Origin: Desulfomarina profundi | Lineage (GTDB): Bacteria; Desulfobacterota; Desulfobulbia; Desulfobulbales; Desulfocapsaceae | Direction of reading: 5' to 3' | DNA: 64,000 nucleotides | Assembly (NCBI RefSeq): GCF_019703855.1 | Contig: NZ_AP024086.1 | Span: forward strand, 1,322,501-1,386,500 | Shown here: positions 9,167 through 45,000 of the stretch, piece after piece | How the letters are laid out: each line of letters starts with the position of its first letter | Position numbering within the stretch: the stretch's first letter is position 1 | Notes under the pieces: generated by a model | Seen by the model: the letters and a program-made list of their open reading frames with translations, nothing else | Told to the model about the DNA's origin: nothing | The model's database searches: none | Position numbers and translations under genes: made by a program

Positions 9167-9180
9167 TTTATATGGTTCCT

Positions 9181-24534: not shown

Positions 24535-25091
24535 GGCTGTATTCCCTTAAAATTTTGATTAAGAACCGGATGCTTCTCGTCTCTTTCTGAAATTGCAGTG
24601 TGTGGCAGGGGCCACGGCAGCGCGAGTTTTGGATCCAGGGGATTGAGTCCGTCCTCAGCAGAAGGGGAGTATACGGCAGAATGAAAATAAAGGAGCTCAA
24701 CAGAATCAGTCATTGTCTGGAATCCATGGGCAAAACCTTCTGGAATATGTAATCCCAGGGAATTCTCTTCAGAGAGAATGACAGTGTAATATTGAAGAAA
24801 AGTAGGAGAACCCGTGCGAATATCAATCACGATATCCATAATGGAACCTTTGAGACAGAGCAGCAGTTTTTTTTCTGAAAAAGGTGGGTGTTGGAAATGC
24901 ATTCCCCGGATTGTTCCCTTTTGTGCAGAATAGCTGAGATTGACCTGGGCAACGGGAGTATCCCAGCCAAGGCAGGAAAGTTCCTCCCGGCAGAAGAGGC
25001 GTATAAAATACCCTCTGTTATCTCTGATCGGGACTCTTTTTACAAGCGAAAGTCCGTCAAATGAAGTCGGCTTTATTATGAGTTTACTCAT
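24531..25091 (-). CDS. dTDP-4-dehydrorhamnose 3,5-epimerase family protein
   Basis: 186 residues, RmlC-type cupin. RGMHFQHPP and GFAHGFQT (with the catalytic His) are present. In this operon it would epimerise a CDP-4-keto-6-deoxyhexose, before or after C-methylation, rather than the dTDP-rhamnose precursor, since no rmlA, rmlB or rmlD is adjacent. It overlaps both neighbours by four bases, so it is tightly coupled. Confidence 0.88.
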   Translation of the reverse strand: MSKLIIKPTSFDGLSLVKRVPIRDNRGYFIRLFCREELSCLGWDTPVAQVNLSYSAQKGTIRGMHFQHPPFSEKKLLLCLKGSIMDIVIDIRTGSPTFLQYYTVILSEENSLGLHIPEGFAHGFQTMTDSVELLYFHSAVYSPSAEDGLNPLDPKLALPWPLPHTAISERDEKHPVLNQNFKGIQP

Positions 25092-26146: not shown

Positions 26147-26916
26147 TACCAGACCTTCCATGGAGCGCTGCCTGATTGCCATAATTCCTCAAGCATGTTT
26201 TTTTCACGCAGCGTATCCATTGGCTGCCAGAAACCGTCATGGACAAATGCCTTCAGTTCGTCGTCGGCAGCAAGGCTCGTCAGAGGTTCGAGTTCCCAGC
26301 TGGTATCGTCCTCAGCTATGCGATCGATACATTCTGGAGAGAGGACAAAAAAACCTCCGTTGATAAGACCCCCGTCACCACGGGGTTTTTCTGAAAACCC
26401 TGCAACACTGTCATTCGATATTGTGAGTGCTCCGAACCGTCCGGGTGGTTGGACAGCTGTTACAGTTGCCAGTTTCCCATGGGATTGGTGAAATCTGATG
26501 GTCGCTGAAATATTCACATCCGCAATACCGTCTCCATAGGTAAAACAGAAAAGTTCTTCATTGCAAACGTACTCCCTGACCCGTTTCAGCCTGCCGCCGG
26601 TCATTGTGTTTTCACCGGTATCAACCAGGGTGACCCGCCATGGTTCGGCATGGTGCTGATGTACCTCCATGCTGTTTTTGGTCATATCAAAAGTGACATC
26701 CGACATATGAAGAAAATAGTTGGCGAAGTATTCCTTGATCAGATAACCTTTATAACCGCAACAGATAACAAAATCATTTACTCCGTGCGAGGAGTAGATT
26801 TTCATTATATGCCAGAGAATGGGTTTGCCGCCAATTTCGATCATGGGCTTGGGTTTAAGATGTGTTTCCTCACTGATACGTGTTCCCAGTCCACCCGCAA
26901 GTATAACTGCTTTCAT
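26146..26916 (-). CDS. rfbF: Glucose-1-phosphate cytidylyltransferase
   Basis: Makes CDP-glucose from CTP and glucose-1-phosphate. 256 residues with [32 protein letters not shown], the RfbF form of the nucleotidyltransferase signature, then [10 protein letters not shown] and SGSAPWKVW at the end. Its ATG overlaps the stop of the giant glycosyltransferase gene (ATGA). Donor synthesis is thus translationally coupled to the transferase. Confidence 0.95.
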
Positions 26917-29900
26917 GAGTTCTCCTCACACCATTGTAAAAACATCTGTCTGTAGGCCTTTTCTACCTTATCGGCAAAATCCTTTTCATCCATAAGCAGA
27001 CTTTTTTCCATTTCAGAACGAAGGCTGGTTCTGAGAATGGCCAGCTGGTCCAGGTTTTCTGTGAGACGGGTTGTGATATCAATATATTCCAGTTCGTCCC
27101 TGGCGATCCATTCGGGATGTCCCAGTCCTTCAAGGATTGTACTGCCAAGTCTCCCGACGCTTGGTCTGTCTGCAAGGGTGATGAAAGGGATACCCATATA
27201 CAGGGTTTCATAGAGTGTTGTCCCGGAATTATGAGGGAAACAGTCAAGGCCGATATCCATGGAACGAAAACTATCCCAGGGAGGACTTGTATACCCGATT
27301 TCCAGCCTGTCTCGTTCTATGCCATGGGCCGCAAACTGAGAGGCCATGTTTTCCTGCATTTCCGGATCCGCAAAGCTGCCACTGTTCAGAATGAGTTTTG
27401 AGTCTTTAACCTGGCGCAGTATTTCAGACCAGGTTCGTATTGTTTTGTAGTTAATCCTTACCGCACGGCTGAGACAGCCAAAGGTGATATAGCCGTTTCG
27501 TTTTGCAGGCAGATCATTGACATCACCCATCCCGGGAGAGGGGCGGTAGGAAAAGGAAGGTCTGTCAAGTCTCCATGGAGTTTCAGCAAACAGATGTTCA
27601 CAACCCTCGGGTACGACAATAGTATCGGCCAGGTAATAATCAATTGCCGACAGACCGGTGGTATAGCCGAAATCAAGCCAGTGAATGGAAACTGGAGCAG
27701 GTTTTGTAGCAAAAACTGCCAGTCTGTTCCGTTCTGTATGGCCAGCCAGATCGACGAGGATGTCGATTTTGTCAGCTAGAATTTCAGTCGCCATTTGCCT
27801 GTCGCTCATTTCAGCTGTATCGATCCAGTGATCCATGTATGTCCTGTATCGATCGGTTACCTCGTCTTCGCGCAGAACATCACTGTAACCATACAGCTCA
27901 ACATTTCTCCGGTTGTGACTGGCGAGAAGCGGTTCAAGGAAATTAAGAACAGGATGCTTGCAGAACTGGGGACAGACATAGCCAATTTTTAAACGTCGGT
28001 TTGGGTTTCGACTGTTTCTGTATACCTGGGAGGCGGGTGTGAGCGGTAGTCCAAACTTATCGTCAAAAAGTCTGTATTCTTCAAAAATCTCCTCTGCTGA
28101 TTTATCAGGATGATAATTCAGGAGAAAAAGGAGATTGCCAAAGGCATCCTGTGAATTCGGATACTTTTTCAAAACAGTGCGAAAAACTGTTTCGGATTCA
28201 TCAAAACGGGCCTGTTCCTGGAGGATATTGCCCAGGTTATTCAAGGCTTTTTTGTAATTCGAGTCAAGCTGCAGGGCCATTCTGTAGCTGTTTTCCGCTT
28301 TTGTCAGCAATCCCTGTTTCTTACAGGTGTTTCCATGGTTCAACCACAGCTTTTTATCATCGGACCGGTTGACGAGGCCTTTTTCATAGTGGATTAATGC
28401 CTTGCTGTTATCACCTCTGTCCGCAAAACAGTTTCCAAGGTTAAACCAGGCTTCAGGATGCTCCGGATTCTGTTGTACTATCTGTTGAAAGCAGGGTATG
28501 GCTTCGCCGGTTCTGTTAAGAGAGGAGAGGGTTTTTCCAAGATTGTGTAATGCTTCAATATAACCAGGTTTGAATTGTATGGCTTTTCTGTAACAGATTT
28601 CAGCCTCATCCAGACGTTGCTGCTCATGGAGGATTGTACCCAGAGAATTGAGTGCCGCTGGATATTCGGGGTTGAGTTCAAGTGCCCTGCGGCATTCGGT
28701 CTCAGCTTCTTCCAATCTTCCAAGGGAAAGCAGTGTCAGGCTCAGTCCGCAATAACATTCTGCGGAATCAGGATGTGCCTTGAGCGCACGGCCATACAGT
28801 TTTTCAGCCTCTTCATAGCTGCCGGTTTCATTGAGAACAAGGGCCAGATTGATACATGCATCCGCAGTGTCAGGAGCAAGCTTCATCGCTTTTCTGAAAG
28901 CTTTTTCCGCTTCCTGATATCGTTTTTGTGATCTGAGAGCGGATCCCAGGGTGTTGAAAGCGTCAGGGTAATGCGGGTTGATTTTCAGTGCCTTTCGACA
29001 ATATTTTTCCGCTTCCTGGTATTTCCCCAGATCACAGAGGATAACAGCAATATTGCGGAGACAGATATAATCCCGCGGAGAAAATGTAACTGATCTTTTC
29101 ATGGCAGTCAGAGCCTCATTGAAGTCTCCAAGTTGCCTGCGGACAGCACCTAGAATTTTCCAGGTCTGGGCGTCATCGGGATACAGTTTTAGAAGAGAAC
29201 GGGCTGTTCTCTCAGCTTCTACCATATTACCCTGTTGATACATTTTGATGAGTCTGTCCTGTTCAATTGTCGGAACCTGTCCGGGTCTGCCATGGACCTT
29301 GCCGGATTTTTGTTTTTTGTTCTTTTTGTTTTTTTTCCGGCCGGTCAGTTTCCCGGTAGTTGTCTTTTTTTTCTGTTCCCTGCATTTTTTTTCAAACATC
29401 TCCCGGTAGGCCTTTTCCATCCTGCGGGCAAAGCCCTTTTCGTCCATCAGGCTGCTTTTTTCCATCCTTGAACGTAATTTTGTACGAATAGTTGCAAGTT
29501 TATGGATATCTGAGGCCAGATTGATCGCCAGCTGGACATAATTCTCCCTGGTTGAGGCTATCCATTCGGTATGTCCAAGCCCGGTGAGAATAGTACAGCC
29601 AAGACGACCTGTCGCAGGCCTGCCGGCCAGGGTGATGAAAGGAATACCCATGTAAAGGGTTTCAAAAAGGGTGGTTCCGGAATTATGCGGAAAACAGTCC
29701 AGGCCAATATCTATCTGCCGCATCAGATCCCATGGAGGAGTGTGGAATCCGATTTTAAGTCTTTCAGGGGTTATCCCTCTTGTGGCAAACTGTTCCTTCA
29801 TTGAATCCTGCATTTCCGGTCTGCGAAAATTATTGGAATCGATGATCAGCCGGGAGTTTTTCACCTGCCTGAGAATTTCGGCCCAGGCATCAATTGTTCT

Positions 29901-32900
29901 ATGATTAATACGTATGGCACGGGTAAGGGTTCCAAAGGTGATATACTTGTTTTCCAGTGCCGGTAATACACTGACTTCTCCCATCTTTTCAGCAGGTCTG
30001 TAAGCAAAACAGGGGGCTCAACCCGCCATATTTTTTCTGAAAAGAGGTGATCAGTTCCGGTGGGGACTATTGCTTCGTCTGCAACATAATAATCAATGGC
30101 TGTAAGGCCGGTTGTGTAACCAAAATCGAGCCAGTGCAAAGAGACAGGGGCGGGCTTTCGGGTAAACATCAGCAGACGGTTGTGAGCTGTGTGTCCGGCA
30201 ATATCAATGAGAATATCTATTTCATCATTTCTGATCCGTGCCGCCAGTTGATCGTCATTCAGGTTGACCGTGGGTATCCAGTGATCGATATAAGATCTGT
30301 ATCGTTTCGAATATTCATCTTCTTCTGTCTGTTCGGCGTAGGCAAAAATCTCAAATGTATCCCTGTCGTGATTGGCGAGAAGCGGTTCAAGGAAATGAAG
30401 AGTTGAATGTCTTTTGAACTGAGGTGAGACATATCCAAGTTTCAGGGGATGTTTTTTCAGATCCCGACGGGTTCTGAGGGGAGCAGGCTGAACCGGATCA
30501 CGGGGAGTTCCGAATTTCTGATTATAGCGATGGTATTCAGCAAAAATTTCTTCCGGAGTTTTATCAGGATGATAGTTTAAAAGGAAGAGAAGGTTGCTGT
30601 GAGCCTCGGAAAAATCAGGATTGAGTTCCACGGCCTTTCGCAGGTAAAATTCTGCTTCCTCTATTTTTCCCTGCTCTTTCAGCACAGAGCCGAGGTTACT
30701 CAAACACAGGGTGAAATCAGGTTGGATCTTCAGTGCTGATTTATATCTGTTTTCAGATTTTCTGTAGTATCCCTGTTCTTTCAGACAGGCCCCTGAATTG
30801 ATCAGTGCTTCTATGAAATCAGGGCGGATATGCAATGCCTTTTCATACCATTTTTCTGCATCCTGCAGGCGCCCCCTGAGTTGCAGGGTGATTCCAAGAT
30901 TTGAGTAGGCCTGTAGATGGTTGGGATCGATTTCAATTGTTTTCAGGTACAGTTTTTCAGCTTCGTTAAGATGGCCCTGTTCTCTCATCAGGTTCGCATG
31001 GTTGAAAAACGGCGCGGCATAGTCGCAGGCAATGTGCTGTGCCTTGATAAAACATTCTTCAGCTTTTGTTGAATCTCCTTCGCGCTGGAAGAGATTACCC
31101 AGGTTCACATAGGCGTCTGTCAGGTTCGGGTTCAGTTCAAGTGACTTTAAATATGATGATTTTGCCATCTCATTTCTGTCCTGCTCAGCCTGAACAATAG
31201 CAAGGCCGAACCAGGATTCGGCAGCCTGCGGGAGATGGCGAAGCGAGTCAAGATAGCATTCTTCCGCTTTGGTCAGTTGTCCGGCTCGGATGTAAATTTC
31301 GGCTAGCAGATGGTAGAGTTCCAGGTCTTTAGGAGCAAGAGAGATTGCCTTCTGCAGTACCGGTATTGCCTCTTCTGATTTTTTTTCACCATGCAGGGCC
31401 AGTCCGAGGGCTTTGCAGCCAAGGGGATATTCAGGACATCTTTTCAGCAGGGTACGGGCGTAGTCCTCACATTCCGCGTATTTTTCCTGTTGAAAAAGAG
31501 TTATCAACTGTTTTTCTTCATCGGGGTCTATCTCAAATTTTTTATCTTCAACTGAAGGACCGGAAAAATTCCCAGCGATTTTCTGTCTTAAATCGGAGAT
31601 ACTGTTGTCCGAGAGACCAGCCTGAACAGCCATTTCAAGAAGCTCCATGGCTGTTTCTGAATTTCCACATTCGTCCAGGGCATCAATATATGACAGCCAG
31701 TACTGTCCCTGTTCCGGAGCAAGATCCACCGCTTTCTGAAAATAGGGAAGGGCTGTTTCGGGTTGTCCCAACACAACGGCGAGACTACCAAGACGGTAAT
31801 GGGCATGAGGATTGTCAGGGGCGTTCTTGAGAATGTCCATGTAGATATTCCCTGCGAGGTCATACTCATTTTCTGCAAAAAATTCTTCAGCGGTGCGGAA
31901 CTGGTCTTCCAATGTATTTATTTCTGATTTTGCATTATTTTTTCTGCTGTACCACTTATCAAACATGTGGATGTAAGCATTTTCCACTTTTGCGGTAAAA
32001 CCGACCTCGTCCATTAACGGGCTGTTTTCCATTTCTTTACGAAGGCCTGACCTGATCCTGGAGAGTCTGTCCAGGTTCCCGGTAAGCTGAACCGCTTTTT
32101 CAATATATTCCTCTTCATTTTCTGCAGCCCATTCAGGATGGCCGACTCCGGCAAGAATTGCACACCCGAGTCGCCCAACACTGGGGCGGTCTTTCAAGGT
32201 GATATAGGGAATACCCATGTAAAGGTGCTCAAAAAGAGTAGTACCTGAATTATGGGGAAAACAGTCAAGACCAATGTCCATGTTTCGCAGTATATCCCAT
32301 GGGGGGTATGAAAACCTATTTTCAACCGGTTTTTTTCAATCCCCAATGCGCCAAATTTTTCCTCAAGTTTCTTTCGGGAGTCAGGATCCTGGTAATCTCC
32401 ACTGTCAATTACCAGTCTGGAACCCCTGACCTTTTTCAGGATCGCCGCCCAGGTGCGTAGCGTCCTGTCATTCAAACGAATCGCCCGTGTAAGTGTACCA
32501 AAAGTTATGTACCCATTGGTTCGAGCCGGCAGCGGAGATACCTCTCCCATTCCGGGTGCTGGACGATAAGCCAGGCTGGGATTTTCCAGGCGCCAGACTT
32601 TTTCACTGAAAAATTCCTCACTTTTTTCTGGAACAATATATTTGTCGGTCAGGTAATAATCAATGGCTGTTAAACCGGTTGTATAGCCGTAATCGAGCCA
32701 GTGCAGGGAAACCGGGGACGGTTTTAACGCAAAAACTCCCAGCCGGTTTCCTTCCGTATGACCAGCGAGATCAACCAGAATATCGATACCATCCCTGCGA
32801 ATCTGTTCTGCTACGGATTGATCAGAAAGTCCCGTGGTGACAAACCAGTGCTCCATGAAAGTCTTGTAACGCCTGGTTTGCTCATCTTCCCCATACAGTT

Positions 32901-35900
32901 CGGCGTAGGTGAAAAGTTCAAATTTTTCCCTGTTATGGTGTTCCAGTAAAGGCTCCAGGCAGTAGCGGGCAGAATGTCTTAGAAATTGGGAAGAGCCGAC
33001 ATAACCTATTTTCAGGCGTCTTCCTGCAGACGGACTGTTTTCATGATCGGTCCATTGATTTTTGCGTGGTTTTTCGAATAATGCATTGAACTTAAGATAC
33101 TCTTGGAAAATGCTTTTCGAACATTTATCTGGGTGGTAGTTTAATTGAAATAATAAATTGCTTATTGTAAGGATATTATCAGGATCCAATTCCAGTGATT
33201 TCTGTAATAATAATTCACTTTCCAGTAATTCCCCTTTTCTTATAAGAATATTACTGAGATTGTTGTATGCTTTAATATAATCGGGCTTTCTTTTGATGAT
33301 TTTTCGGCAGATTGATTCCGCTTCAGCGCTGAAACCACGTCTGTACTTTGTAATTGCCAGATTATTCAGGGTTTTTATGTCATTTGGATGTATTGAAAGT
33401 GCTTTGTAGTAACTTATTTCCGATTCCTCAAGTTTTCCTGCCTTGTGTAAAATCATTCCTTTACACCTATGTGCTTCAAAGAAAACAGGACTAATGGAAA
33501 GGGCCTGATCGCAGTAATGATTAGCTTTCTCCAATTGACCTTTCTCAAGAAACAATAAAGCTAGATTATTGAGTGCGGGTACAAATGATTGGTTGAAATC
33601 AAGTGCCTTGAGATAGCAGTTCCTGGAATCTTTAAAAGCGTTTTTTTCTTGATAAACGAGTCCAAGATTATTGAATGCTTCACATGAGTCAGGCTGTAAT
33701 TCAATGGCTTTTTTACAAGCTTTCTCAGCATCATCTAGTTTGTTTAATTCCTTTAATGTCAACCCGAGGTTACTGTAAATTTGGCTGGATTTTGGATTGA
33801 TTGTGAGTGCTTTTTCATAAAATTCTAGAGCTTGATGATATTTTTCCTGATGTCTGAAAAGATTACCAAGATTACAATAAGCTTCGTAAAATTCATGATG
33901 GTTTTTGATTGCGGCAAGAAATGCAGTAATGGCCTCATCCAGTTCGCCAAGTTCAAAAAGAACATTCCCCAGGTTGTAATATGCCTGACTGTTATCCGAT
34001 TTGAGTCGCAGGGTTGAACGGTAAAATTCAATGGATTCCCGAAGGTTTCCTGATTGCTCCAGGCCAATTGCGAGATTGAAGTGGGCTTCAGGGTCATCAG
34101 GCAGCAGAGCCGCGGCCTGTTTCATGGCCTGAATGGCTTTTTCAGTTGCTCCCTGCTGAAAAAGAAGAGGGCCTAGAATTTTCCAGGTAAATCCGCTGTC
34201 AGGGTGTTTTTTTACCAGAGATTGGGCAAGGGACAGGGCTTCCTGTTGTTTGCCACTGTTGAATAGTCTGACGAGTCTGGCCTGTTCCTTTTGGGTCGGG
34301 TTTGTCCTCTGTTTTTTTTGTTTCTTAGACCGTTGTTTTTTCCTTGGTTTATTTTTCCCCTGATACCACCTGTCAAACATTTCACGATATGCTTGTTCAA
34401 CCCTCAGGGTAAAGGCTTTCTCATCCATCATCGGTCCGAGTTCAAGAGTCCTTCGCAGGTTTTTCCTTATCTCGGAAAGCTTTTTAATATCTGAGGCGAG
34501 CTGGATCGCCAGCTGAATATATTCGTTTTCCGTGTCGGCGATCCAGTCCGGGTGATCAACACCATACAGAATCGAACTGCCTATTCTGCCCATTCCGGGA
34601 CGTGCTGCCAGGGTGATATATGGAACCCCCATATACAGGCTTTCAACCAGTGTTGTTCCGGAGTTATGGGGGAAACAGTCAAGACTGATATCAATTTGCC
34701 GGAAAACATCCCATGGCGGAGAATTACATCCGATTTTTAATCGATTTTTTTCAATACCGTGGGAAAGAAACTGTTGTTCCATCTGATGTTGCATTGATGA
34801 TTCTTTGAAACTGCCACTGTTTATGACAAGTTTAGAATCTGGTACTGCATGGAGAATTTCAGCCCAGGTACGAATTGTTTTATAATTAATGCGAGCAGCC
34901 CTGGTGAGGGTTCCAAAGGTTATGTAATTATTTGTTGCGGCAGGGAGATCATTGACTGGTCCGGTATCTTCAGGAGGTCTGTATGCCTGAGCGGGAGTAT
35001 CTATATACCATGGGGTTTCTGAAAAAAGGTGCTCGGAACCTTGGGGGACGGTTATGTGGTCGGTCAGGTAGTAATCAATGGCAGACAGACCGGTTGTATA
35101 GCCATAGTCAAGCCAGTGAAGGGAGACAGGGGCGGGTTTTCTTGCAAAAACAAGAAGACGACTGCCTGCCGTGTGACCGGCCAGATCAACAAGAATGTCA
35201 ATACCGGCAGCACGTATGGTTTCTACAAGCTGCTGGTCACTTAATTGAGTTGTAGATAACCAGTTGTCAACGTGCCCATGAAAAATATCGCTTTCAGCCT
35301 CATGTTCAGGAACTGCCACAAAGCTGTAAATCTGAAATAGATCCCTGTCATGGTTCGCCAGTAAAGGAATAATAAAATATCTGGCAGGATGTTTTCTGTA
35401 ATCGGCAGCGCAATACCCGATTTTCAGGCGTCGATTCTTGCGGGAGGTGTTGGTATGGGGCTGCCAATGTTTTTTGAGCGGCAGACAGAAACGGTCATCA
35501 AATTTTTTATATTCAAGAAAAAGATCTTTTGCTGATATGTCCGGGTCGTAATTCAGGGTGAAGAGCAGGGTACTGTACGAATTAATGTGATCAGGTTTGA
35601 GGTCGGTCGCTTTTCTTAAAAAATTTTCAGCATCCCTGTGACGTCCCTGTTCCTGGAGAATATTGCCGAGATTATAAAGGGCAAGATGATAATCCGGTTG
35701 CAGGCTGATTACCTGCCGGTAATACTTTTCAGCCGGCTCCAGATTATGTTGAATCTTGTGCGTATTTGCAAGGTTGAAAATGGCATCAGTATATTCAGGT
35801 CTGTACTGCAGAGCCCGGGTAAGGCAACTTTCAGCTTCCCGGTAGTTGCCCAGTTGTTGAAAAACTACCCCCAGGTTATTCCAGGCGTCGGCAAAATCGT

Positions 35901-38385
35901 GTTGGATATTGAGAGCATTTATGAACTGGTTTTTTGCTTGATCATAACGTTTTTCCTGAAGGAAATCGATTCCCCTGTTGAAAAGCGATACCGCCTCCGG
36001 GTCGATCCGGTTTTTGCTGTTATTGTTTTGTGAATCGCTCCATATCCTGAACATGGATCGGTAGGCGTTTTCGACCTGTCCGGTAAAGCCTTGGTGATCC
36101 ATCAGCTTCCCGGTTTCCATCTCATTCCTGAGGCTTTTTCTAAGGTGTGATAATTGTTCAATGCCTGAGGCCAGTTGAACGGCCTTATCCAGGTATTCCT
36201 GTTCATTGGCAGCGATCCACTCAGGATGTCCTATTCCCTGCAATATTGAACTGCCGATTCTTCCAACACCGGGACGGTCTGCCAGAGTAATATAAGGAAT
36301 ACCCATGTAAAGACTTTCAAAGAGTGTAGTGCCGGAGTTATGGGGAAAACAGTCAAGGGTTATGTCTATTTGTCTCAGTATGTCCCAGGGCGGTGAATGG
36401 AATCCGACCTGGATCCGTTCCTTTTCTATGCCATGGGCAATGAACTTGTCGAGCAGTTTCTGCTGGGAGTGGGTGTCTTTAAAATTGCCGCTGTCTATGA
36501 TGAGACGGGAGTTTTCCACTCGTTTCAGCAGTTGTGACCAGAGCCGGATAGTCCTGTGATTTATACGTATGGCTCTTGTAAGAGTGCCGAAGGTAATATA
36601 ATTGTTTGTACAAGCCGGCAGTTCACCGACAGGTCCCATGTTCCTGGAGGGTCGGTAAACAAACGAGGGAACAGTAAGGCGCCATATTTTTTCGGAAAAG
36701 TATTTTTCAGAACCAAAGGGGGCGCAAAACGGGTCGGAAAGATAATAATCTATGGCAGTAAGGCCGGTAGTATAACCGAAATCAAGCCAGTGCAGTGATA
36801 CGGGGGCAGGTTTGCGTGCAAAAACACCAAGCCGGTTTCTGCCCGTATGACCAGCCAGGTCAACGAGAATATCTATCCGGTCTTCACGAATTCGTTCAGC
36901 CAGCTGGTCATCCGAATACGCTGTGGTCGGGATCCAGTGGTGAAAAAAATGTTTGTAGCGATCTGTAATTTCATCATCTCTTATGGTTTCAGAATAGGCA
37001 AAAAGTTCAAAAGATGAGCTGTCATGGTTTGCCAGCAGAGGTTCAAGAAAGTTGAAAACAGGATGTCTGGAAAAAGCGGGAGAGACATAACCCACCCGAA
37101 GACGACGATCCGTCGAGGGACTATTCTGGTGAGGTTTCCAGCTGGTTTTCTGTGGCAGGCCAAACGTGGTATCATACTTTTTATAGCGTGAAAAGAGTTC
37201 ATTAGAAGTAAGATCAGGATGATAGTTTGAAATAAAAAGCAACCCGTCAAACGGTTCTGTGTATTCGGGATCGAGATTCATGGCAGCGCGGTAGCATTCT
37301 TCAGCTTTGTCCAGTTCTCCCATGCAATGGAGGGTATTGCCGAGATTGTTATGGGCAATGGCGGAATGTTCGTTAAGCTCAAGGGCCTTGAGAAAATTCT
37401 GTTCTGCTTCGCCAAGTCTTCCAGCGGAATGGAGAACATTACCCAGATTATTGTATCCGTCCCCGTATCGCGGATTGAGCTCAAGCGCTGTTCTGAGACT
37501 TTTCTCAGCCTCAGTCAATCGACCAAGGTCTTTCAGGGTGATCCCGAGATTACTGTGAGCTTCGGTGTAATCCGGTTGCAGTCGTATGGCCTCATTAAAA
37601 GCCTGTTCGGCATCTTTTAGTCTTCCAAAAGATCTGAATGTGACACCGAGATTGTTGTAGGCCTCAGCAAAGCCGGGATCAAGGGAGATCGCCCGTTGGA
37701 GCATCTCTTCTGATTCGGACAATAAACCTTCATTTTCAAAGATAATGCCGAGATTGTTGAAAAGCAGGGCATCTTCCGGGAGATACTGTGCGGCTTTGAG
37801 CATGGTATCAATGGCTTCTCCGACACGGTTCTGTTGTTTGAGAACCGCACCCAATATTTTCAAGGTGTTACCGTTTTCAGGAAAGGTTGTGAGAATCTGA
37901 CGTGCCAATGCTTCGCATTCAGTAAATTGCTTTCTTTCATAAAGGGCAATAAGTTCTGCCTGCAGTTCAGGATCCGGATCGTTGAGCTCAGAAGTAGATT
38001 TTTCTGGATACAGACGGTGGGAGAGTGCGTCAACCTCATCGCCCGCCAGACCAGCTTTTTGGGCCAGATCAAGAATCTTACCAGCTTCTTCTGTTTGTCC
38101 GGTTTCTGCAAGCGCATCAATATACGATATCCAGTACGGGCCATGTTCAGGATTCTGGTCAAGTGCGGTTTCAAAATGGGAGAGAGCCAGGGAAAGGAGG
38201 TTTTTCTGTCGGCAAAGAGAACCGATTAAATAATTTGCCTCGGGATGATCCGGCATCAGGTCAAGAACTGCCCTGAAATATTGTTCCGCTTCATCGGCAG
38301 CTCCGTTATGGAGTAATGATTGTCCTTTTTCAAGGGCTTCAGATATAAGCTGGAGTTGTTCTTCGTTTTTTTGAGATGAATTCAT
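26913..38385 (-). CDS. Giant five-module TPR + GT41 (OGT/SPINDLY-type) glycosyltransferase, two single-base frameshifts
   Basis: Restoring one G at each of two runs on the plus strand (G6 at 32301-32306 and G5 at 30012-30016) makes one frame of 3,825 codons, a protein of about 3,824 residues. Both joints rebuild conserved motifs (FHTPPWD; EPPCFAYRP). Five GT41 domains of about 360 residues lie at about 426-781, 986-1342, 1788-2146, 2642-2999 and 3459-3824. Each is preceded by a block of TPRs (34-residue repeats like AYNNLG...EAE..). All modules have the His of the RHP/RHS motif, [18 protein letters not shown] and [10 protein letters not shown]. Lys-rich linkers follow modules 2 and 4. No signal peptide or membrane segment is seen, so it is probably cytoplasmic. 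The likely target is Ser/Thr of flagellin, before export; this is inferred from place. It heads an operon with rfbF, rfbG, epimerase and methyltransferase. Confidence 0.88.
26916..28010 (-). other. GT41 module 5 of the giant protein
   Basis: C-terminal catalytic module. It begins [20 protein letters not shown] (His of the active-site region), has [39 protein letters not shown] and [17 protein letters not shown], and ends at the stop. It is preceded by about 11 TPRs (28070-29240). Confidence 0.85.
29390..30460 (-). other. GT41 module 4 of the giant protein (contains frameshift)
   Basis: It has [44 protein letters not shown] and [17 protein letters not shown]. The frame changes at G5 30012-30016 between EPP and CFAYRP. 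It ends in a Lys-rich linker (29285-29390). Preceded by about 11 TPRs (30570-31900). Confidence 0.83.
31950..33022 (-). other. GT41 module 3 of the giant protein (contains frameshift)
   Basis: It has [46 protein letters not shown] and [17 protein letters not shown]. The frame changes at G6 32301-32306 inside FHTPPWD. Preceded by about ten TPRs (33150-34270). Confidence 0.83.
34360..35430 (-). other. GT41 module 2 of the giant protein
   Basis: It has [46 protein letters not shown] and [17 protein letters not shown]. Preceded by only about four TPRs (35500-36000), the shortest block, and followed by a Lys/Arg-rich linker (34290-34350). Confidence 0.85.
36045..37110 (-). other. GT41 module 1 of the giant protein
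   Basis: It has [46 protein letters not shown] and [17 protein letters not shown]. Preceded by eight or nine TPRs (37180-38380) that start the protein. Confidence 0.85.
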
Positions 38386-38694: not shown

Positions 38695-39609
38695 ATGAAA
38701 CTGCAAGACCTCTGTGTTGACGCTGTAGGTGAACTTACGGAAGACGAGAGAAAAAAAGTTTTTTTCAGCCAGATGGCTGCTATCCGTTTTTGTGAAGAGG
38801 CTCTTCTGGCATTGTTTTCAAAAGGACTGGTTCGTGGAACTGTTCATACTTGTCTTGGACAGGAAGGGTGTGCGACGGGTGTAGTGAACGGACTGGATCG
38901 TAAAAAGGATATTATCTGTTCAAATCATCGGGGGCATGGTCACTTTCTGGCGTACAGTTTTAATTTTCGTGGACTGGTGGCCGAGATAACTGGACTGGAG
39001 TCGGGGGTATGTGGTGGGATAGGTGGCAGCCAGCATCTGCATATGGGGAATTTTTACTCTAATGGTATTCTCGGAGGAATGCCACCAGTTGCCACGGGTA
39101 TGGCTGCTGCCGAAAAAACAAAAGGCAGTGACAGCATAGTCTGTGTTTTTCTGGGAGATGGAGCGATGGCAGAGGGGAGTTTTTACGAGGCATTGAATCT
39201 TGCAGGATTGTGGAAACTGCCGGTTCTTTTCGTGGTCGAACATAATCAGTATGCCCAGAGTACCCACTGGAAAATGCAGCATTCCGGTGAACTTGAACAG
39301 AGGGCGGCGACCTTCGGCGTCCCGGTGTTTGAAGTTGACGGTAACATGGTTGAACGTGTTTTTCAGGCAACTTGTGAATGCACAGCTTCAATCAGAGGCG
39401 GTGGTGGCCCCGGAATGCTTTTTCTCAAAACTTACAGACTCGGTGCCCACAGCAAAGGAGAAGACCATAGAAGTTCAGCAGAACTGGATAAATACAGGGT
39501 TTGCGATCCTCTGGTGCAGCTCAGGAAACAAATTGATCAGCAATGGTGTGACGATTGCGAGGCGGAATTGAACCGGGAGATCAGAAATCTGGTTGACTCG
39601 CTTTTCTGA
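38695..39609 (+). CDS. 2-oxoacid dehydrogenase E1 alpha subunit
   Basis: 304 residues of the pyruvate/acetoin/branched-chain dehydrogenase E1alpha type, using thiamine diphosphate. The ThDP/Mg motif runs GDGAMAEGSFYEALN to EHNQYAQST; the first Asn of the usual NN is His, while the metal-binding Asn is kept. NHRGHGH, IGGSQHLH and YRLGAHSKGEDHR are also typical. It would decarboxylate a 2-oxoacid and pass the acyl unit to lipoamide. ATG 38695 follows AAGGA; the upstream TTG has no ribosome site. First gene of the divergent decoration operon. Confidence 0.9.
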   Translation: MKLQDLCVDAVGELTEDERKKVFFSQMAAIRFCEEALLALFSKGLVRGTVHTCLGQEGCATGVVNGLDRKKDIICSNHRGHGHFLAYSFNFRGLVAEITGLESGVCGGIGGSQHLHMGNFYSNGILGGMPPVATGMAAAEKTKGSDSIVCVFLGDGAMAEGSFYEALNLAGLWKLPVLFVVEHNQYAQSTHWKMQHSGELEQRAATFGVPVFEVDGNMVERVFQATCECTASIRGGGGPGMLFLKTYRLGAHSKGEDHRSSAELDKYRVCDPLVQLRKQIDQQWCDDCEAELNREIRNLVDSLF

Positions 39610-39637
39610 GATCTGAATTATCGGAAACAAGAGGAAA

Positions 39638-39693
39638 AAATGAACGTCTGACTACTGCAGAACAACCTCTGGTCTCGGTATTTTCAGATATAA
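39638..39693 (+). repeat. Short dispersed leader repeat, copy 3
   Basis: Between the E1alpha and E1beta genes. ATGAACGTCTGACT, TGCAGAA, CTGGTCTCGGT and TTTTCAGATATA follow the same order as copies before lpxA and selB. Confidence 0.4.
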
Positions 39694-39706
39694 TATATTC
39701 GGAGAA

Positions 39707-40708
39707 ATGATGAATTTTCTTGAATCATTGAAAAAAGGGTTGTTTGAATCTTTTGCCGAAGATGACAGGGTAGTGTTACTGGGGGAGGATATTGTTGACC
39801 CCTATGGCGGTGCATTCAAAGTGTCACTGGGGTTGTCCTCCCTTTATCCTGATCGTGTTTTAAATACCCCGATCAGTGAAGCGGGTTTTACAGGTGCTGC
39901 CGGAGGTATGGCCATTCGCGGGTTGAGACCTGTTGTGGAGATAATGTTTGGAGATTTTCTGACCCTTTGTACAGATCAGATTGTCAATCATATCACCAAA
40001 TTTGCATCGATGTATCCCGGAGTTGAGGTTCCTCTTGTTATTCGGACACCCATGGGAGGTGGACGGGGGTATGGGGCAACCCACAGCCAGACTCTTGAAA
40101 AAATGTATCTTGGAGTGCCGGGGTTAAAAGTCGTGGCGCCTGGCCTTGCACATGATCCCGGAAAAATAGTGCGAACCGCTGTTCTCAAGGACAGTTCTCC
40201 GGTCCTTTTTATTGAAAATAAGGCCCTCTACAGCAGGGAGCTGATTGCTGAAAAGGCAGGGGAATTGACGGTGAAGGAAATTGAGACGTCTACCGGCTAT
40301 CCTGTCGCCGTTGTCAGTAATATGGAAGGGAGCAGACCTGATGTTGTTGTTCTGGCCTATGGTGGTGCGAGCCTTCCTTTGTGTGAGGTTATGGAACAGT
40401 TTGCAGATGAGGAAATCAGCATCAAGGCGTTGTTTCCGTCTCTGATTAATGAGGTGGATATGGAACTGTTACTTCCGGAACTCAGGGGATGTGGCAATAT
40501 TGTTATCTGTGAAGAGGGCAGTGAAGGATTTAACTGGGGAAGCGAGATGGCTGCATGTATCTATGAAAAAATGCATAGGCAGTTGCGAAATCCCATACTC
40601 CGTGTGGCGGCAGAGAATACTGTCATACCATGTGCGAAAAAGCTGGAGGATGCGGTGTTGCTGAATGAAAACAAAATTGAACAGGCAATAATGGAGTTAT
40701 TATCATGA
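39707..40708 (+). CDS. 2-oxoacid dehydrogenase E1 beta subunit
   Basis: 333 residues with transketolase-like pyrimidine-binding (LLGEDIVDPYGGAFKVS, ISEAGFTGAAGGMAIRG) and C-terminal domains, normal for E1beta. GRGYGATHSQ contains the active-site His. CGGAGAA lies just before the ATG; a second ATG follows immediately. The stop overlaps the next start by four bases (ATGA), so E1beta is coupled to the lipoyl-acyltransferase. Confidence 0.92.
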   Translation: MMNFLESLKKGLFESFAEDDRVVLLGEDIVDPYGGAFKVSLGLSSLYPDRVLNTPISEAGFTGAAGGMAIRGLRPVVEIMFGDFLTLCTDQIVNHITKFASMYPGVEVPLVIRTPMGGGRGYGATHSQTLEKMYLGVPGLKVVAPGLAHDPGKIVRTAVLKDSSPVLFIENKALYSRELIAEKAGELTVKEIETSTGYPVAVVSNMEGSRPDVVVLAYGGASLPLCEVMEQFADEEISIKALFPSLINEVDMELLLPELRGCGNIVICEEGSEGFNWGSEMAACIYEKMHRQLRNPILRVAAENTVIPCAKKLEDAVLLNENKIEQAIMELLS

Positions 40709-41820
40709 ACGCTGAATTTGTACAGGTGCCGGCAATCAACGCCAATGACACCACAGCGACACTGGTAGAATGGACTGTTGATGATCGTGAGGCTGTGTCC
40801 ACGGGTGATATTATCGCAATAATTGAGACTACCAAGGCTGCAATCGAGGTGGAAGCCCCTGTCGAAGGGTATTGCGCCCATCTGTATCAGGAAGGAGAAA
40901 AGCTCTCTGAAGGAGCATTCCTGGCCGTTATCCTTCAGGATCAGGATGAAGACCTGGAACCATATCTGCACAAGCTTAAAAAAAGAGAAGAAAAGAAAAA
41001 AGATAGCCGCCAATGGACGAGAAAAGCTGAGTTAATGGCTAGGAAATTTGGTATTGATATTGAACAACTGGCAGCAAAATTAGGGAGGAGGGTCAAGGAG
41101 AGTGATGTTATGAATTCCCGGGATCCCGGTGCTGTTCTCTTAGATCTGGTGGATGATGAATACCCGGCCACCAGGCGGGAACGTGTTCTGCTGATAGGAG
41201 GAGCCGGGGGAGGGGGAGTGATAACCCTTGATGCAATAGCGCGAACCCTGCATCAACGTGCCGTGGGAATTCTTGATAATAATTCAGGTCTCAAGGGGAA
41301 GACATTGATGGGTGTACCTGTTCTTGGGACCAATGACATGGCATGGGAACTCTGGGAAAAGAAATTTTTTGATGCGGCAATTATTGTTGTAACTGCCGAT
41401 ATAGGTCAGCGTGAGGAGTTGTTTGAGTGGGTGAAGATGGAAGGTATTCCACTCACGAATGTTATTGATCCATTGGCGGAAATACGTACTAACTGTTCCC
41501 TTGGGACCGGAAATCTCATAATGGCCAACTGTTTTCTGGCGGCCTGTGTGAAACTTGGAGATAATAATTTCCTGGCCAGTCACGTCTGTATTGAACATCA
41601 CAGTGTTGTCGGCAGTCACTGTACTTTCGGGCCAAGGACCACGACCTCCGGGGCTGTAACTATTGGAAACCGGATCAAGTTCGGTATGGGTGTCCTCGTG
41701 GAGCCTTACCTGGAAATTGGTGACAATTCGGTTATTCCGTCTGGAATTGTCTTGAACAGCTCGCTTTCTGCCGGAACTGTTTTAAAGGTCAAGCGAAATT
41801 ACAGTGAAACAGTTCGCTGA
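40705..41820 (+). CDS. Lipoyl domain + subunit-binding domain + NeuD/PglD-like sugar acyltransferase fusion
   Basis: 371 residues. About 1-80: a lipoyl domain with the modifiable Lys44 in IIETTKAAIEVEAP. About 105-140: a peripheral-subunit-binding domain (RKAELMARKFGID...GRRVKESDV), which in E2 proteins docks E1 or E3. About 155-371: a PglD/NeuD-type domain, with Rossmann-like VLLIGGAGGGGVITLD, NNSGLKG and MGVPVLG, then a left-handed beta-helix with IEHHSVVGSHC (first His at the catalytic position) and FGPRTTTSG. The usual E2 catalytic domain with HxxxDG is absent. With the E1 genes just upstream, the reading is that an acyl group made from a 2-oxoacid is passed on the lipoyl arm to a sugar amine or hydroxyl. 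That chemistry is inference; the domain order is visible. No E3 gene is adjacent. Confidence 0.88.
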   Translation: MNAEFVQVPAINANDTTATLVEWTVDDREAVSTGDIIAIIETTKAAIEVEAPVEGYCAHLYQEGEKLSEGAFLAVILQDQDEDLEPYLHKLKKREEKKKDSRQWTRKAELMARKFGIDIEQLAAKLGRRVKESDVMNSRDPGAVLLDLVDDEYPATRRERVLLIGGAGGGGVITLDAIARTLHQRAVGILDNNSGLKGKTLMGVPVLGTNDMAWELWEKKFFDAAIIVVTADIGQREELFEWVKMEGIPLTNVIDPLAEIRTNCSLGTGNLIMANCFLAACVKLGDNNFLASHVCIEHHSVVGSHCTFGPRTTTSGAVTIGNRIKFGMGVLVEPYLEIGDNSVIPSGIVLNSSLSAGTVLKVKRNYSETVR

Positions 41821-41838
41821 AACTCTTTTTCTGTTTTG

Positions 41839-42635
41839 ATGCATATGGAAGAATTTACAGTTTACGGCAGCACAGGGATTATTGGAAGTCATGTCACAAG
41901 GTATTTGGAAAAGAATGGTTTTTCGGTAAACACTCCCGACAGGGACGAAGTGCTTTCTTTTAGTACCCCCCTGGGCCATGTGTTGTACTGTATCGGGGTA
42001 ACAGCTGATTTCAGAAACAGACCCATCGATACGGTTCAGGCTCATGTCTGTGTACTGTCGGAAATTTTGAGAAGGGGTGATTTCACATCACTGCTCTACC
42101 TTTCTTCCACCCGGATTTACAGTGGGGCCGATAGTGGACGTGAGGATGCCCGTTTCAGCCTGGATCCGTCAGATCCGTCAGACCTCTATAATCTTTCAAA
42201 GCTCATGGGAGAATCACTTTGTCTCCAGTGTGGCAGGAAAGGGGTGAAAATTGCCAGACTGTCAAATGTGGTGGGGGACGGGACGAGGGTGAGCAGAATT
42301 TTATACCGTCTCTCATGCGCGATGCAAAAAAAGGGCAGATTCTGCTTCGCTCTGATCCTGCATCGGCGAAGGATTATATCCATATCGATGATGTAGCTTT
42401 TCTTGTGAAGGAAATTGCCTGCAGGGGAAAACAAAAAATCTACAATGTTGCCGGAGGACGGCAGATTACCCACGCAGAGTGGTTAGAACAACTGGTTTGC
42501 CTGACAGGTTGTACAGTCGAAGTGGAAGAAGGGGCACCACTTGTCAAATTTGTACCTGTTGATATTTCACGGGTAAAGGAAGAATTTGGTTTCAGTTCGC
42601 AATCTGTGTTTACAGTTCTTGAAAACAGGATATAA
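41839..42635 (+). CDS. NAD-dependent sugar epimerase/reductase (single-base frameshift)
   Basis: Extended SDR fold: VYGSTGIIGSHVTRYL near the start, SSTRIYSG, and YNLSKLMGE (catalytic Tyr and Lys). The frame breaks at five G (42273-42277). One more G gives the family pattern NVVG..DEGEQNFIPSLMRDA, followed by LRSDPASAKDYIHIDDV, 265 residues in all. As read, the first part ends in a random tail at 42396. It may reduce or epimerise the 4-keto group of the operon's nucleotide sugar. ATG 41839 is chosen; 41845 is possible. Confidence 0.85.
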
Positions 42636-42645
42636 CGGTGATGAA

Positions 42646-43428
42646 ATGAAAAATGATATGATTCAGCAATTTCGGCAGGAACGTGCTGAGCGGGTACAAA
42701 GGTATGCGGAGGATAAATCTTTTCAGCAGTTGAGTGGTTCCTGGCTTGCTGAATCAATGGCCAGAAAATATGTCTATAATTTTGAATGGCTGGGTAGGCC
42801 TGTTATTCAATATCCTCAGGATATGGTTGCTGTTCAGGAACTGGTGTGGCGCTGTAGACCTGATCTGATCATCGAAACAGGAATTGCCCACGGTGGTTCC
42901 CTGATACTGAGTGCCTCTCTTCTCGCCCTTCTTGAGATGTTTGATGCCATGGAAAACGGTGTAGAGCTGGATCTTCAGAATCCAGCAAAAAAGGTTATAG
43001 GTATTGATATTGATATACGGGCGCATAATCGCAGAGCAATTGAAGAACATCCCCTTGCAGGGCGTATAGAAATGTTTGAAGGCTCCGCCATAGACAGTGA
43101 CATAATAAAAAAAGTTCATGACGCAGCCAGAGGGTTCAGCAAGGTAATGGTATTTCTTGATTCGATGCATACCCATGAGCATGTTCTGAAAGAATTGGAA
43201 GGTTATGCACCACTGGTTGGCAGGGGCAGTTACTGCGTGGTCTTTGACACCTATATTGAGAATATGGAGCCGGGGTTCTTTCCTGACCGCCCCTGGGATG
43301 TCGGAAACAATCCCATGACTGCGGTAAAACAATGGCTGGTTGATAACCGGGATTTTACGGTCGACAGGGAAATGGAAACAAAACTACAGGTTACAGTCGC
43401 ACCGCACGGTTTCTTGAGAAGGAAATAA
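42646..43428 (+). CDS. CmcI/cephalosporin-hydroxylase-family SAM-dependent methyltransferase
   Basis: 260 residues. The Rossmann-type SAM site ETGIAHGGSLIL, IGIDIDIRAHN and LDSMHTHEHVLKELE are characteristic of the CmcI family. Despite its name the family includes O-methyltransferases for sugars and antibiotics. In this operon it would methylate the glycan; that is inference. The upstream gene ends ten bases earlier. A shared terminator follows. Confidence 0.82.
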   Translation: MKNDMIQQFRQERAERVQRYAEDKSFQQLSGSWLAESMARKYVYNFEWLGRPVIQYPQDMVAVQELVWRCRPDLIIETGIAHGGSLILSASLLALLEMFDAMENGVELDLQNPAKKVIGIDIDIRAHNRRAIEEHPLAGRIEMFEGSAIDSDIIKKVHDAARGFSKVMVFLDSMHTHEHVLKELEGYAPLVGRGSYCVVFDTYIENMEPGFFPDRPWDVGNNPMTAVKQWLVDNRDFTVDREMETKLQVTVAPHGFLRRK

Positions 43429-43491: not shown

Positions 43492-45000
43492 TTATCCCTG
43501 CAGGAGCTGGAGAGCAAGCTGTGGTGTCTGGTTTGCCTGTGAGAGGATTGCCACTCCCGCCTGTTGGAGAATATTATTCTTTGTCATGGCAGAAGTTTCC
43601 TGGGCGATATCGGCATCAAGTATTCGTGATCTTGCCGCAGAAAGATTTTCTGAAACATTGGAGAGATTAGCGATTGTTGATTCAAACCGGTTTTGAATTG
43701 CCCCGAGATTACCGCGCATACTGTCTATCTGGTCAAGAGCTCCATCAATTGTTTTTATCGCGTTTCCTGAGCCGGTTACGGTTGAAATATCAATATTATC
43801 CACTGAACTGAGAGTGCTTACGTTGGCATTGTTTGCCGCGACATTGAACAGGGAACCTGAAGTGTTGGCGATATCACTGGAAATATTAAACCCGTTGGGA
43901 CTTGAAAATGTGATTTCTCCACCGACTGTTGAAGAATCGGCGTCATCAGCAGCTCCAGCTTCGGTAAGGGTTACCGCACTGCCTTCACTCCCCTGCAGGG
44001 TTATTGTCGCAGAACCTGAACTATGCGCGAAATCAAGGATTTTAATATCATAACCACTTGATTGCTCCAGTGTCACACTGGCCTTGTCCGCGCTGAGTGT
44101 GGCTGTAACTCCGGTGTTTCCTGTCTGCTCATTGATGGCAGAGACCAGGTTGGTCAGATCATCTGACAGGACAGTGGCATTGATGGTCACAGCAGTAACG
44201 TTGGTACCCTGCAGGCTGAAACCGACATTGCCGTTTGCGTTGAGACTACTGAGTGTTGCCGTGGTTCTTGCGGTAGCCTTTACTCCGGTATCTGATGATA
44301 CCGCATTAATTTTACTGGCAATTACATTGGCGGTGTCACCATCGGCCACAGAGGCTGTTTTGGATCCCTGGGGTCCTGCAATTGTCAGTGTTTGAGCCAT
44401 GACATCATTTGCAGAACTGCCTGAGGCAGCAGATGTAGCGGCTTCAATACTGTAATTTGCAGTGCTGTTACTGGAGGTGAGGCTGTTATTGCCGAGATTG
44501 GCAGCCTTGGCGGAGCTAATACTGAAGGAAATTGTTTCATTTGCATTGGCCCCGACCTGGAACTGTGCCGAGGACATTGTACCGTCCAGCAGTTTTTTGC
44601 CGTTAAATTCAGTGGTTTCAGCAATACGGCTGATTTCCTGCTTGAGCTGGTTGACTTCGGCCTGAAGAGAAGAGCGATCTGACGCACTGTTGGTGTCATT
44701 GGCCGACTGAACAGCGAGTTCCCTCATTCTCTGAAGTATATTCGTTGTTTCCTGCAGGGCTCCTTCTGCTGTCTGGGCAAGGGAAATCCCATCGTTCGCA
44801 TTTCTGGCTGCCTGGTTCAATCCTCGAATCTGCGATGTCATTCGATCCGAGATTGCAAGTCCTGCAGCGTCATCTTTAGCCGAATTAATTCGCAGGCCGG
44901 AAGAGAGACGCTGCATTGCTTTGGCCAGGTCTCCCTGGGATTTTCCTAAATTTCTCTGTGCGTTTAATGATGATACGTTCGTGTTGATTGTCAGTGCCAT
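43492..45000 (-). CDS. fliC: Flagellin FliC2
   Basis: 502 residues, paralogue of FliC1. Terminal D0/D1 regions are almost identical ([35 protein letters not shown]), and the central Ser/Thr-rich part is similar with scattered changes. The end differs slightly (LALQLLQG). A weak sigma-28-like promoter and a leader with AAGGAC and AAGGAGG lie upstream. It closes the glycosylation island on the right. Confidence 0.97.

Follow-up and report, generated by a model that had tools for sequence, protein, structure and literature searches.

What would a 2-oxoacid dehydrogenase be doing beside an acyltransferase for sugars? The question is raised by three co-directional genes in a stretch of 64,000 nucleotides from Desulfomarina profundi, a member of the Desulfobacterota (contig NZ_AP024086.1 of assembly GCF_019703855.1, positions 1,322,501 to 1,386,500; the whole stretch is called the window, and all coordinates are counted in it unless the contig label C1 or a locus is named). 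They lie at 38695-41820 and code for the two subunits of a thiamine diphosphate (ThDP)-dependent E1 enzyme and for a protein in which a lipoyl domain, a peripheral-subunit-binding domain (PSBD) and an acyltransferase of the left-handed beta-helix (LbH) type are fused:

38695-39609, + strand: E1alpha, like ThDP-dependent 2-oxoacid dehydrogenases, 304 amino acids (PF00676, E-value 2.4e-53)
39707-40708, + strand: E1beta, 333 amino acids (PF02779, 1.5e-28; PF02780, 7.6e-12)
40705-41820, + strand: lipoyl-PSBD-NeuD-type LbH acyltransferase fusion, 371 amino acids (Biotin_lipoyl, Hexapep, TIGR03570)

It is probable that the three gene products work as a small complex, which acylates a nucleotide-activated sugar at the expense of a 2-oxoacid or an acyloin, a proposal in which lipoylation, the acyl group, the acceptor and direct transfer are what we infer. 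It is the best available reading of the genes and their domains, recurrence, linkage, context and conserved catalytic residues.

The Pfam matches of the E1alpha and E1beta products (PF00676, PF02779 and PF02780), together with a GDG...N motif, which we take to be the ThDP motif of E1, are those of a 2-oxoacid dehydrogenase, and the E1alpha model TIGR03182 reaches 224.5 bits, short of its cut-off of 393.85. The stop of the E1beta gene and the start of the fusion gene share four bases (ATGA, 40705-40708). The closest unit to that of the window was found in a Burkholderiales locus (L083; L and G numbers are our labels for loci and genomes), with an identity of 51% for the fusion, 58% for E1alpha and 54-55% for E1beta. 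The fusion itself is composed of the following parts:

40720-40932, + strand: lipoyl domain, residues 6-76 (PF00364, 8e-11; model against the lipoyl domain 3crk_C of pyruvate dehydrogenase (PDH) E2, TMt 0.79, root-mean-square deviation 1.4)
40834-40836, + strand: codon of Lys44, the predicted lipoylation site, in ETTKA (same Lys in 33/33 aligned fusions)
41011-41124, + strand: PSBD-like helical domain, about residues 103-140 (hhalign to E2 PSBD; helices in the model)
41179-41784, + strand: PglD_N-like domain and LbH acyltransferase, residues 159-360 (TIGR03570; PerB 4eab, TMt 0.89, root-mean-square deviation 1.2)
41596-41598, + strand: codon of His298, which pairs with PerB His141 in the alignment (kept in at least 90% of the 33 fusions)

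An earlier reading of this DNA, made from the letters and their translations (the sequence-only reading), had described E1alpha and E1beta genes followed, with a four-base overlap, by a protein carrying a lipoyl domain with Lys44, a PSBD and a beta-helix acyltransferase in place of the E2 catalytic domain. Gene order and overlap, lipoyl domain and replacement of the catalytic domain were all borne out, although the invariance of Lys44 is mostly a result of selection and has little independent weight, because the search motif demanded ET[ST]KA. The PSBD stood in part: the region (taken from 22 of the 33 fusions) aligns profile to profile with the PSBD of 10 lipoyl-CAT (E2-type) proteins (hhalign probability 95.3%, E 2.1e-8) and forms helices at 106-114, 119-126 and 132-137 of an AlphaFold2 model, within a helical stretch between 85 and 137, but it is degenerate, and Pfam E3_binding matches 6 of the 33 fusions (E<=0.01), the window protein not among them. 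The lipoyl-PSBD arrangement of an E2-like protein is therefore recognised, as far as the PSBD goes, by profile-profile comparison and not by Pfam.

The C-terminal part belongs with the NeuD-like acyltransferases. NCBIfam NeuD_NnaD (TIGR03570) matches residues 162-359 with an E-value of 6.6e-36 and 123.8 bits, below its curated cut-off of 160.8, Hexapep matches with 1.1e-12, and PglD_N with 19.3 bits, below the Pfam cut-off of 23.4. Biotin_lipoyl and Hexapep are matched by all 33 fusions, PglD_N by 31 (E<=0.01); the Pfam scan shows the E2 catalytic domain 2-oxoacid_dh (PF00198) neither in the window fusion nor in any other of the 33, and no PP-binding domain is among the Pfam matches of the window fusion. 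The AlphaFold2 model, built on the 33-row alignment (mean pLDDT 90.9), shows the lipoyl domain, a low-confidence linker (144-156), an alpha/beta domain and then the beta-helix. Its top rank in Foldseek is the GDP-perosamine N-acetyltransferase PerB (4eab, TMt 0.89, 1.2 Å), so that the PglD_N plus LbH fold of NeuD, PglD and VioB is present in the model, PglD_N itself being below its cut-off; PerB structures matched include the H141A and H141N mutants, and PDH E2 lipoyl (L2) domains are also returned (TMt 0.71-0.79). His298 and Gly316, the histidine and glycine expected of the NeuD family, are each kept in at least 90% of the 33 fusions. In Pcryo_0637, His142 has been proposed as the base and Gly160 as the oxyanion hole (excerpt of PMC8040287), and by our own mapping His298 and Gly316 would correspond to these two residues.

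Recurrence in other genomes, on which the sequence-only reading had made itself dependent, was found: complete lipoyl-LbH fusions are present at 32 public loci of several phyla, giving 33 aligned rows with the window. A chance fusion is ruled out, and a conserved, patchily spread system is confirmed. The hosts are deltaproteobacterial metagenome-assembled genomes (MAGs), Hydrogenedentes, Anaerolineae/Chloroflexi, Actinomycetes, Thermoleophilia, Gaiellaceae, Mesorhizobium (two loci), Halochromatium, Burkholderiales, Bacteroidetes, Ignavibacteria, Rhodohalobacter and Phycisphaeraceae, named ones including Mesorhizobium loti DSM 2626, Halochromatium salexigens DSM 4395 and Rhodohalobacter sulfatireducens. 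The broad scan covered one genome per species (84,980 species) with the single lipoyl motif ET[ST]KA, which fusions with another motif escape, and 80 of 121 confirmed relatives were kept; 37 loci (L056-L090, L107, L116) were surveyed and the remaining kept loci were judged by match list, E2 query and spot checks. L086, cut by a contig end, and the E2-type loci L087-L089 and L116 were left out of the 33-row set.

Searches around the known hosts added few members. Among 395 genomes of the phylum, that of the window included, one full-length relative besides the window's was listed (in the deltaproteobacterial MAG G211; E<=1e-20, few candidates scored per genome), whose own relatives gave three more. 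The 33-fusion profile returned Halochromatium itself alone from 274 genomes of its class (E<=1e-40, at most 7 candidates scored in each), and no place on plasmids or phages covered 80% of the query. The fusion thus looks rare and patchy within the limits of these searches. Single-sequence searches are too weak to pick up its relatives: the query P0003 gave 34 pattern matches on genome contigs, with no relative confirmed, and in 96 relatives searched with it (E<=0.001) there was no full-length fusion among the matches listed.

The fusion is linked to E1 nearly everywhere. Of the 33 complete fusions, 31 (30 of the 32 public ones) are no more than 3 kb away from an E1 gene when the loci are searched with E1 by blast; in 16 of the 33, the window included, the two are same-strand neighbours with a gap within about 100 nt, and an overlap of four bases like that of the window is also present in L080, L083, L084 and L085. 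The E1 is on the opposite strand in three loci (L068, L079 and L081). This conservation bears on the idea of a lipoyl part that has lost its function, in what would be an ordinary NeuD dependent on coenzyme A (CoA), an idea which could appeal to the degenerate PSBD and to the fact that lipoylation of Lys44 is a prediction; with E1 kept beside 31 of 33 fusions in several phyla and the ETxKA lipoyl motif intact (partly by selection), we hold it most improbable.

Since the fusion offers the same parts as PDH, the simplest reading is a cycle that runs from E1 over the lipoyl arm to the LbH domain and on to a sugar. An E1alpha2beta2 tetramer with ThDP would cleave a 2-oxoacid (or an acyloin) and reductively acylate the lipoyl group that Lys44 is predicted to carry; the PSBD-like domain would tether E1, and possibly E3, to the fusion. 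The lipoyl domain, on its flexible linkers, could then reach the cleft between adjacent beta-helix subunits, where His298 would take a proton from the acceptor. This acceptor, most likely a sugar amine introduced by a DegT aminotransferase, would receive the acyl group straight from dihydrolipoyl, free acyl-CoA playing no part; an E3 encoded elsewhere would reoxidise the dihydrolipoyl group. In the Geobacillus PDH, E1 is held by the PSBD and contacts the lipoyl domain through its active-site loops (excerpt of PMC2663715). A route from 2-oxoacid over lipoyl to nucleotide-sugar had already been proposed in the sequence-only reading, and it gains from recurrence, E1 linkage, glycan neighbours, the conserved His and Gly, and lipA and E3 genes, which the window genome encodes away from the fusion, but it loses from an E1 group that is not exclusive and from the lack of a strong DegT match in the window.

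At several loci the unit occupies the place expected of a sugar N-acyltransferase. In Rhodohalobacter (L090) the order is Polysacc_synt_2, DegT, aldo-keto reductase, SDR, CTP_transf_3, a fused E1, the fusion and a NeuB-type gene, a set that we take to be a nonulosonic-acid pathway. In Mesorhizobium (L076 and L078) DegT is followed by E1alpha, E1beta and the fusion, and Poly_export, Bac_transf and PIG-L come before them in L076; in Halochromatium (L085) the unit also comes after DegT. Four deltaproteobacterial MAGs share the order Gfo/Idh, fusion, E1alpha, E1beta and DegT, to which G211 adds radical SAM and carbamoyltransferase genes, as well as glycosyltransferase and flippase-like genes recognised by eye. 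Around the unit, the window holds:

23308-26916, - strand: nucleotide-sugar genes, namely NTP_transferase, dehydratase-like (GDP_Man_Dehyd), dTDP_sugar_isom and C-methyltransferase (Pfam)
26913-38385, - strand: TPR proteins with Glyco_transf_41 (GT41, SPINDLY-type) domains (PF13844 in 26913-29984 and 29861-32281; 32194-38385 by eye only)
41836-42635, + strand: NAD-dependent epimerase-like gene split over two frames, 41836-42396 and 42219-42635 (PF01370, 5.6e-15, in the first piece; second joined by eye)
42646-43428, + strand: RMNT_CmcI-type methyltransferase (PF04989, 1e-88)

The window is a flagellin-glycosylation island, and the product of the unit probably decorates flagellin there. The genes run from FliD and flagellin over C-methyltransferase, isomerase, dehydratase, nucleotidyltransferase and GT41 proteins to E1alpha, E1beta, fusion, epimerase, CmcI-type methyltransferase, a further flagellin (43492-45000, by its sequence), a Flagellin_N protein and FlgK; the island is large (19982-49206), lies between two flagellar gene sets and contains at least two TPR-GT41 proteins. 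Halochromatium shares with it the NTP transferase, dehydratase, isomerase and C-methyltransferase (the same four Pfam types), E1alpha, E1beta, the fusion, a CmcI-type counterpart near the fusion (L085:11915-12691, 7.9e-99) and GT41 (PF13844, L085:12556-17856), and has in addition a DegT gene ahead of E1alpha and a TylF-type methyltransferase. A Mur ligase family protein is encoded near the island, at 16327-17772 on the - strand. Frames are split in the epimerase gene (41836-42635) and at the end of the GT41 protein (32194-38385), both seen by eye, and in a DegT gene elsewhere in the genome (G000:C1:1504161-1505278); these splits look like assembly indels or broken genes.

Several observations weigh against the proposed cycle, beginning with the E1 itself. 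A first E1beta tree of 57 rows (32 fusion-linked and 25 E2-linked), which took 15 of the 47 E2-type loci and had L101, L118, L122, L125, L130, L131, L133 and L135 outside, parts the two labels by one branch (support 100/99). Once those eight are included (65 rows), three changes of the fusion label are required: the main fusion E1 group (33 rows; 100/100) then holds 28 fusion rows and five others, L118, L122, L131, L133 and L135, and the E1beta of the four deltaproteobacterial fusions falls with the E2-linked side. In none of these five loci is the lipoyl protein a NeuD fusion, and a CAT domain was seen in those of L118, L131 and L133, so the notion of the fusion E1 as a lineage of its own was withdrawn. 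The window E1beta pairs with that of Halochromatium (99/90) and, less firmly, with those of Burkholderiales and Ignavibacteria (91/94; 96/99 in the 57-row tree), in a tree with several long branches; E1 matches shorter than 180 residues and the duplicate L136 had been dropped before the trees and the E1alpha residue comparison. As the main group serves several lipoyl-acyltransferase types, its dedication to the fusion is weakened and a modular reading fits; the type of E1 alone is no proof of a sugar route, because E1 of the same group also serve lipoyl-CAT proteins, and the 65-row tree makes the direct lipoyl-to-sugar cycle slightly less likely and a route through acyl-CoA slightly more.

The same loci blur what had looked like a substrate fingerprint in E1alpha. 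His78, Gln113 and Lys254 are present in 29 of 29 fusion-linked sequences, as opposed to 0/16, 0/15 and 0/16 of the E2-linked ones, and solved PDH E1alpha proteins align Tyr, Met and Met at these positions; the His and Lys are also present in L101, and the Gln in L118, L131, L133 and L135. These residues mark a wider class from which no substrate can be inferred, which weakened the candidate fingerprint. The loci themselves are from Magnetococcales and Microbispora (L133:7971-12035, L118, L122 and L135) and from Paenibacillus (L131:8043-14620). In the latter, a Condensation-domain protein precedes E1alpha, E1beta and a lipoyl-CAT protein, and the gene directly after the lipoyl-CAT gene encodes 1164 amino acids with a PP-binding, a reductase-like and a weakly matched FkbH_N domain.

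Linkage and family motifs add further points on this side. The expectation that E1 is always adjacent fails at two loci, L075 (no E1 gene in 21 kb) and L061 (none on a contig of 3.3 kb, with 220 bases upstream), and in 12 complete Anaerolineae loci (and in the cut L086) a same-strand gap of about 800 nt separates E1 from the fusion, occupied in L062 by a DUF4013 gene. In the window protein, the NeuD motif lacks its second His. The C-terminal G.PA motif, which is associated with CoA and is missing in 28 of the 33 fusions, is kept, as GNPA, in the four deltaproteobacterial fusions and in L107, and it is also missing from many free NeuD proteins: it was counted in 13 of 33 script-picked free frames (L034, with GIPA, carries a G.PA that the narrower pattern did not count) and in 15 of 25 frames of another set. 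This last count is low, because several of the 25 frames, picked from 29 free NeuD loci of which 4 gave no frame, look wrong (L171, L181, L182, L188 and L190). In the last turn of Pcryo_0637 there is an Asn-Pro cis-peptide, which is trans when CoA is absent (excerpt of PMC8040287), and we would equate this Asn-Pro with the NP of the GNPA motif. The absence of G.PA fits a changed thioester donor, of which it is no proof, the sequences being non-independent.

These points bear most directly on the rival in which the NeuD domain still takes acyl-CoA or acyl-acyl carrier protein (ACP), the lipoyl domain and E1 supplying acyl-CoA on the spot, with the acyl group moving from lipoyl to CoA and only then to the sugar, or the fusion being an alternative E2 that makes acyl-CoA. 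Solved NeuD/PglD relatives with a donor in their title have CoA or acetyl-CoA; the retained GNPA and the pairing of same-group E1 with lipoyl-CAT proteins also speak for it, as do the non-glycan neighbours of the two scanned Anaerolineae loci (LysM, Lgt, citrate synthase and DUF4013 in L062 and L066, citrate synthase being in L066). Opposed to it are the absence of G.PA in most fusions and of an E2 catalytic domain in the fusion and around it: tblastn with the window genome's own E2 catalytic domain and E3 found neither above 70 bits at 33 public fusion loci (L056-L086, L090 and L107, contig extent permitting). This absence is only moderately controlled, because the E2 query, which matches 39 of 47 other loci, misses true E2s (3 of the 8 missed carry PF00198) and the E3 query, matching no locus anywhere, is without a positive control. 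The window genome has a separate E1beta-E2-E3 cluster (C1:3304071-3307723) with its sole PF00198 match (C1:3305590), and PF00198 is matched in 31 of the 32 other host genomes that were searched, though by no more than 39 residues in G535; the one genome without a match, G531, is an assembly of 1.6 Mb. The fusion was therefore rejected as the sole E2 of its hosts, and a second source of acetyl-CoA seems idle. On balance we regard the acyl-CoA route as unlikely.

A further point concerns the acceptor. No strong DegT match is present within the window, the nearest strong one being 67 kb past its end, which leaves N-acylation at this locus tentative; a weak partial match (7797-8015, - strand, 24.9 bits, E 2e-5) lies inside the open reading frame 7137-8318, and an aminotransferase of another type is possible. 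Readings as Pse-like and Pgl-like pathways are based on Pfam names, gene order and the known course of such pathways. Two rivals draw on the missing DegT match. PDH-like E1alpha/E1beta pairs (AviB1/AviB2 and Pau11/Pau12) have been implicated in the biosynthesis of branched sugars, in which a two-carbon branch on carbon is proposed (excerpt of PMC4425429). Here, too, E1 might build a C-C branch on a keto-sugar, assisted or scaffolded by the lipoyl-LbH protein, and the dehydratase and C-methyltransferase genes of the window, without a strong DegT match, could suit such a route; the NeuD catalytic domain with its general base and the DegT genes adjoining E1 in other loci speak against it. Carbon acylation, moreover, is not known as an LbH reaction, and we consider this route improbable.

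The second rival sends the acyl group to a hydroxyl (O-acylation) or to an acceptor other than a sugar. Besides the missing aminotransferase match, it can point to the other LbH types in L068 and L107 and to the CAT domain beside genes resembling nonribosomal peptide synthetase (NRPS) genes in L131; the nearest folds are N-acetyltransferases of NDP-amino sugars, and PglD_N in 31 of 33 fusions argues in the same sense. We see O-acylation or a non-sugar acceptor as an unlikely outcome too, its probability overlapping with that of the preferred lipoyl-to-sugar cycle, with which it shares direct transfer from lipoyl.

Whatever the acceptor, a more general CoA-independent logic could be involved, in which one group of E1 loads lipoyl arms on interchangeable acyltransferase folds and acyl groups derived from 2-oxoacids or acyloins are delivered directly to surface sugars and secondary metabolites. 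Lipoyl would then join CoA and ACP as a third thioester donor in the acylation of sugars. The folds would be the NeuD-type LbH, another LbH in L107 and, with weaker Pfam scores, in L068, and CAT in L118, L131 and L133; we believe and doubt this generalisation in equal measure. The L107 protein (9980-11221, Phycisphaeraceae) joins its lipoyl domain to an LbH of another type, with a GNPAK tail and without PglD_N among its Pfam matches, and lies beside a fused E1. L068 encodes a second lipoyl-LbH-like protein at 9015-10607 (- strand; 531 amino acids, Biotin_lipoyl 2.2e-9, Hexapep 6e-4, containing GVPAR), which adjoins the fusion-group E1 of that locus, where the NeuD-type fusion is also found.

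If the proposed cycle is true, lipoic acid would donate acyl groups directly in the making of glycans, and 2-oxoacid metabolism would be tied to surface sugars bypassing the CoA pool. This could explain how acyl groups that need no acyl-CoA form are placed on flagellar and O-antigen-like sugars, and would offer a modular enzyme for new acylated nucleotide sugars. E1 genes adjoining a lipoyl-LbH gene would be its genomic signature, and the named hosts (M. loti, H. salexigens and R. sulfatireducens) make the system testable.

As to known systems, a lipoyl-NeuD fusion was not found described in the titles and abstract openings of the papers that searches of the open-access literature listed (subscription papers lie outside that scope). 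The statement in the sequence-only reading that such a system was nowhere described is thereby narrowed, among the papers listed, to the wiring of lipoyl to a sugar acyltransferase; PDH-like systems proposed to transfer acyl groups to carrier proteins (pepteridine, naphthyridinomycin) and sugar E1 of the AviB type have been published. The AviB1/AviB2 and Pau11/Pau12 account, in the excerpt cited above, does not mention a lipoyl-acyltransferase fusion, a difference drawn from description and not from sequence. For pepteridine, from Photorhabdus, PDH-like E1 and E2-like enzymes were proposed to turn 2-oxoacids into acyl groups on a non-CoA acceptor, the acyl group passing to an NRPS carrier protein and a condensation domain, with a pterin as acceptor and E3 borrowed from the cell (excerpt of PMC5384830). 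As far as that excerpt describes it, the window resembles pepteridine in its E1, its E2-like lipoyl-bearing protein and the proposed recourse to an E3 encoded elsewhere, and differs in that Pfam lists no T/ACP (PP-binding) domain for the fusion. With the pyruvate and branched-chain 2-oxoacid dehydrogenase complexes it has in common E1alpha/beta and a lipoyl domain, PSBD-like domain and flexible linkers ordered as in E2; unlike in these, a NeuD-type LbH stands in for CAT and no E3 is seen nearby (weakly controlled). In naphthyridinomycin biosynthesis, NapB/NapD, a PDH/transketolase-like E1 and a lipoyl partner, reportedly (Peng 2012) deliver a two-carbon glycolicacyl unit without free CoA, the substrate being a ketose phosphate and the acceptor an acyl carrier protein; the window likewise pairs E1 with a lipoyl-bearing partner, but Pfam shows no PP-binding domain in the fusion. 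Finally, NeuD, PglD, PerB and VioB (TIGR03570) share with the fusion their fold (PerB, TMt 0.89), catalytic His, PglD_N-like domain and, in several loci, DegT neighbours, from all of which it is set apart by being joined to a lipoyl carrier, linked to E1, scored below the family cut-off (123.8 against 160.8 bits) and mostly devoid of G.PA.

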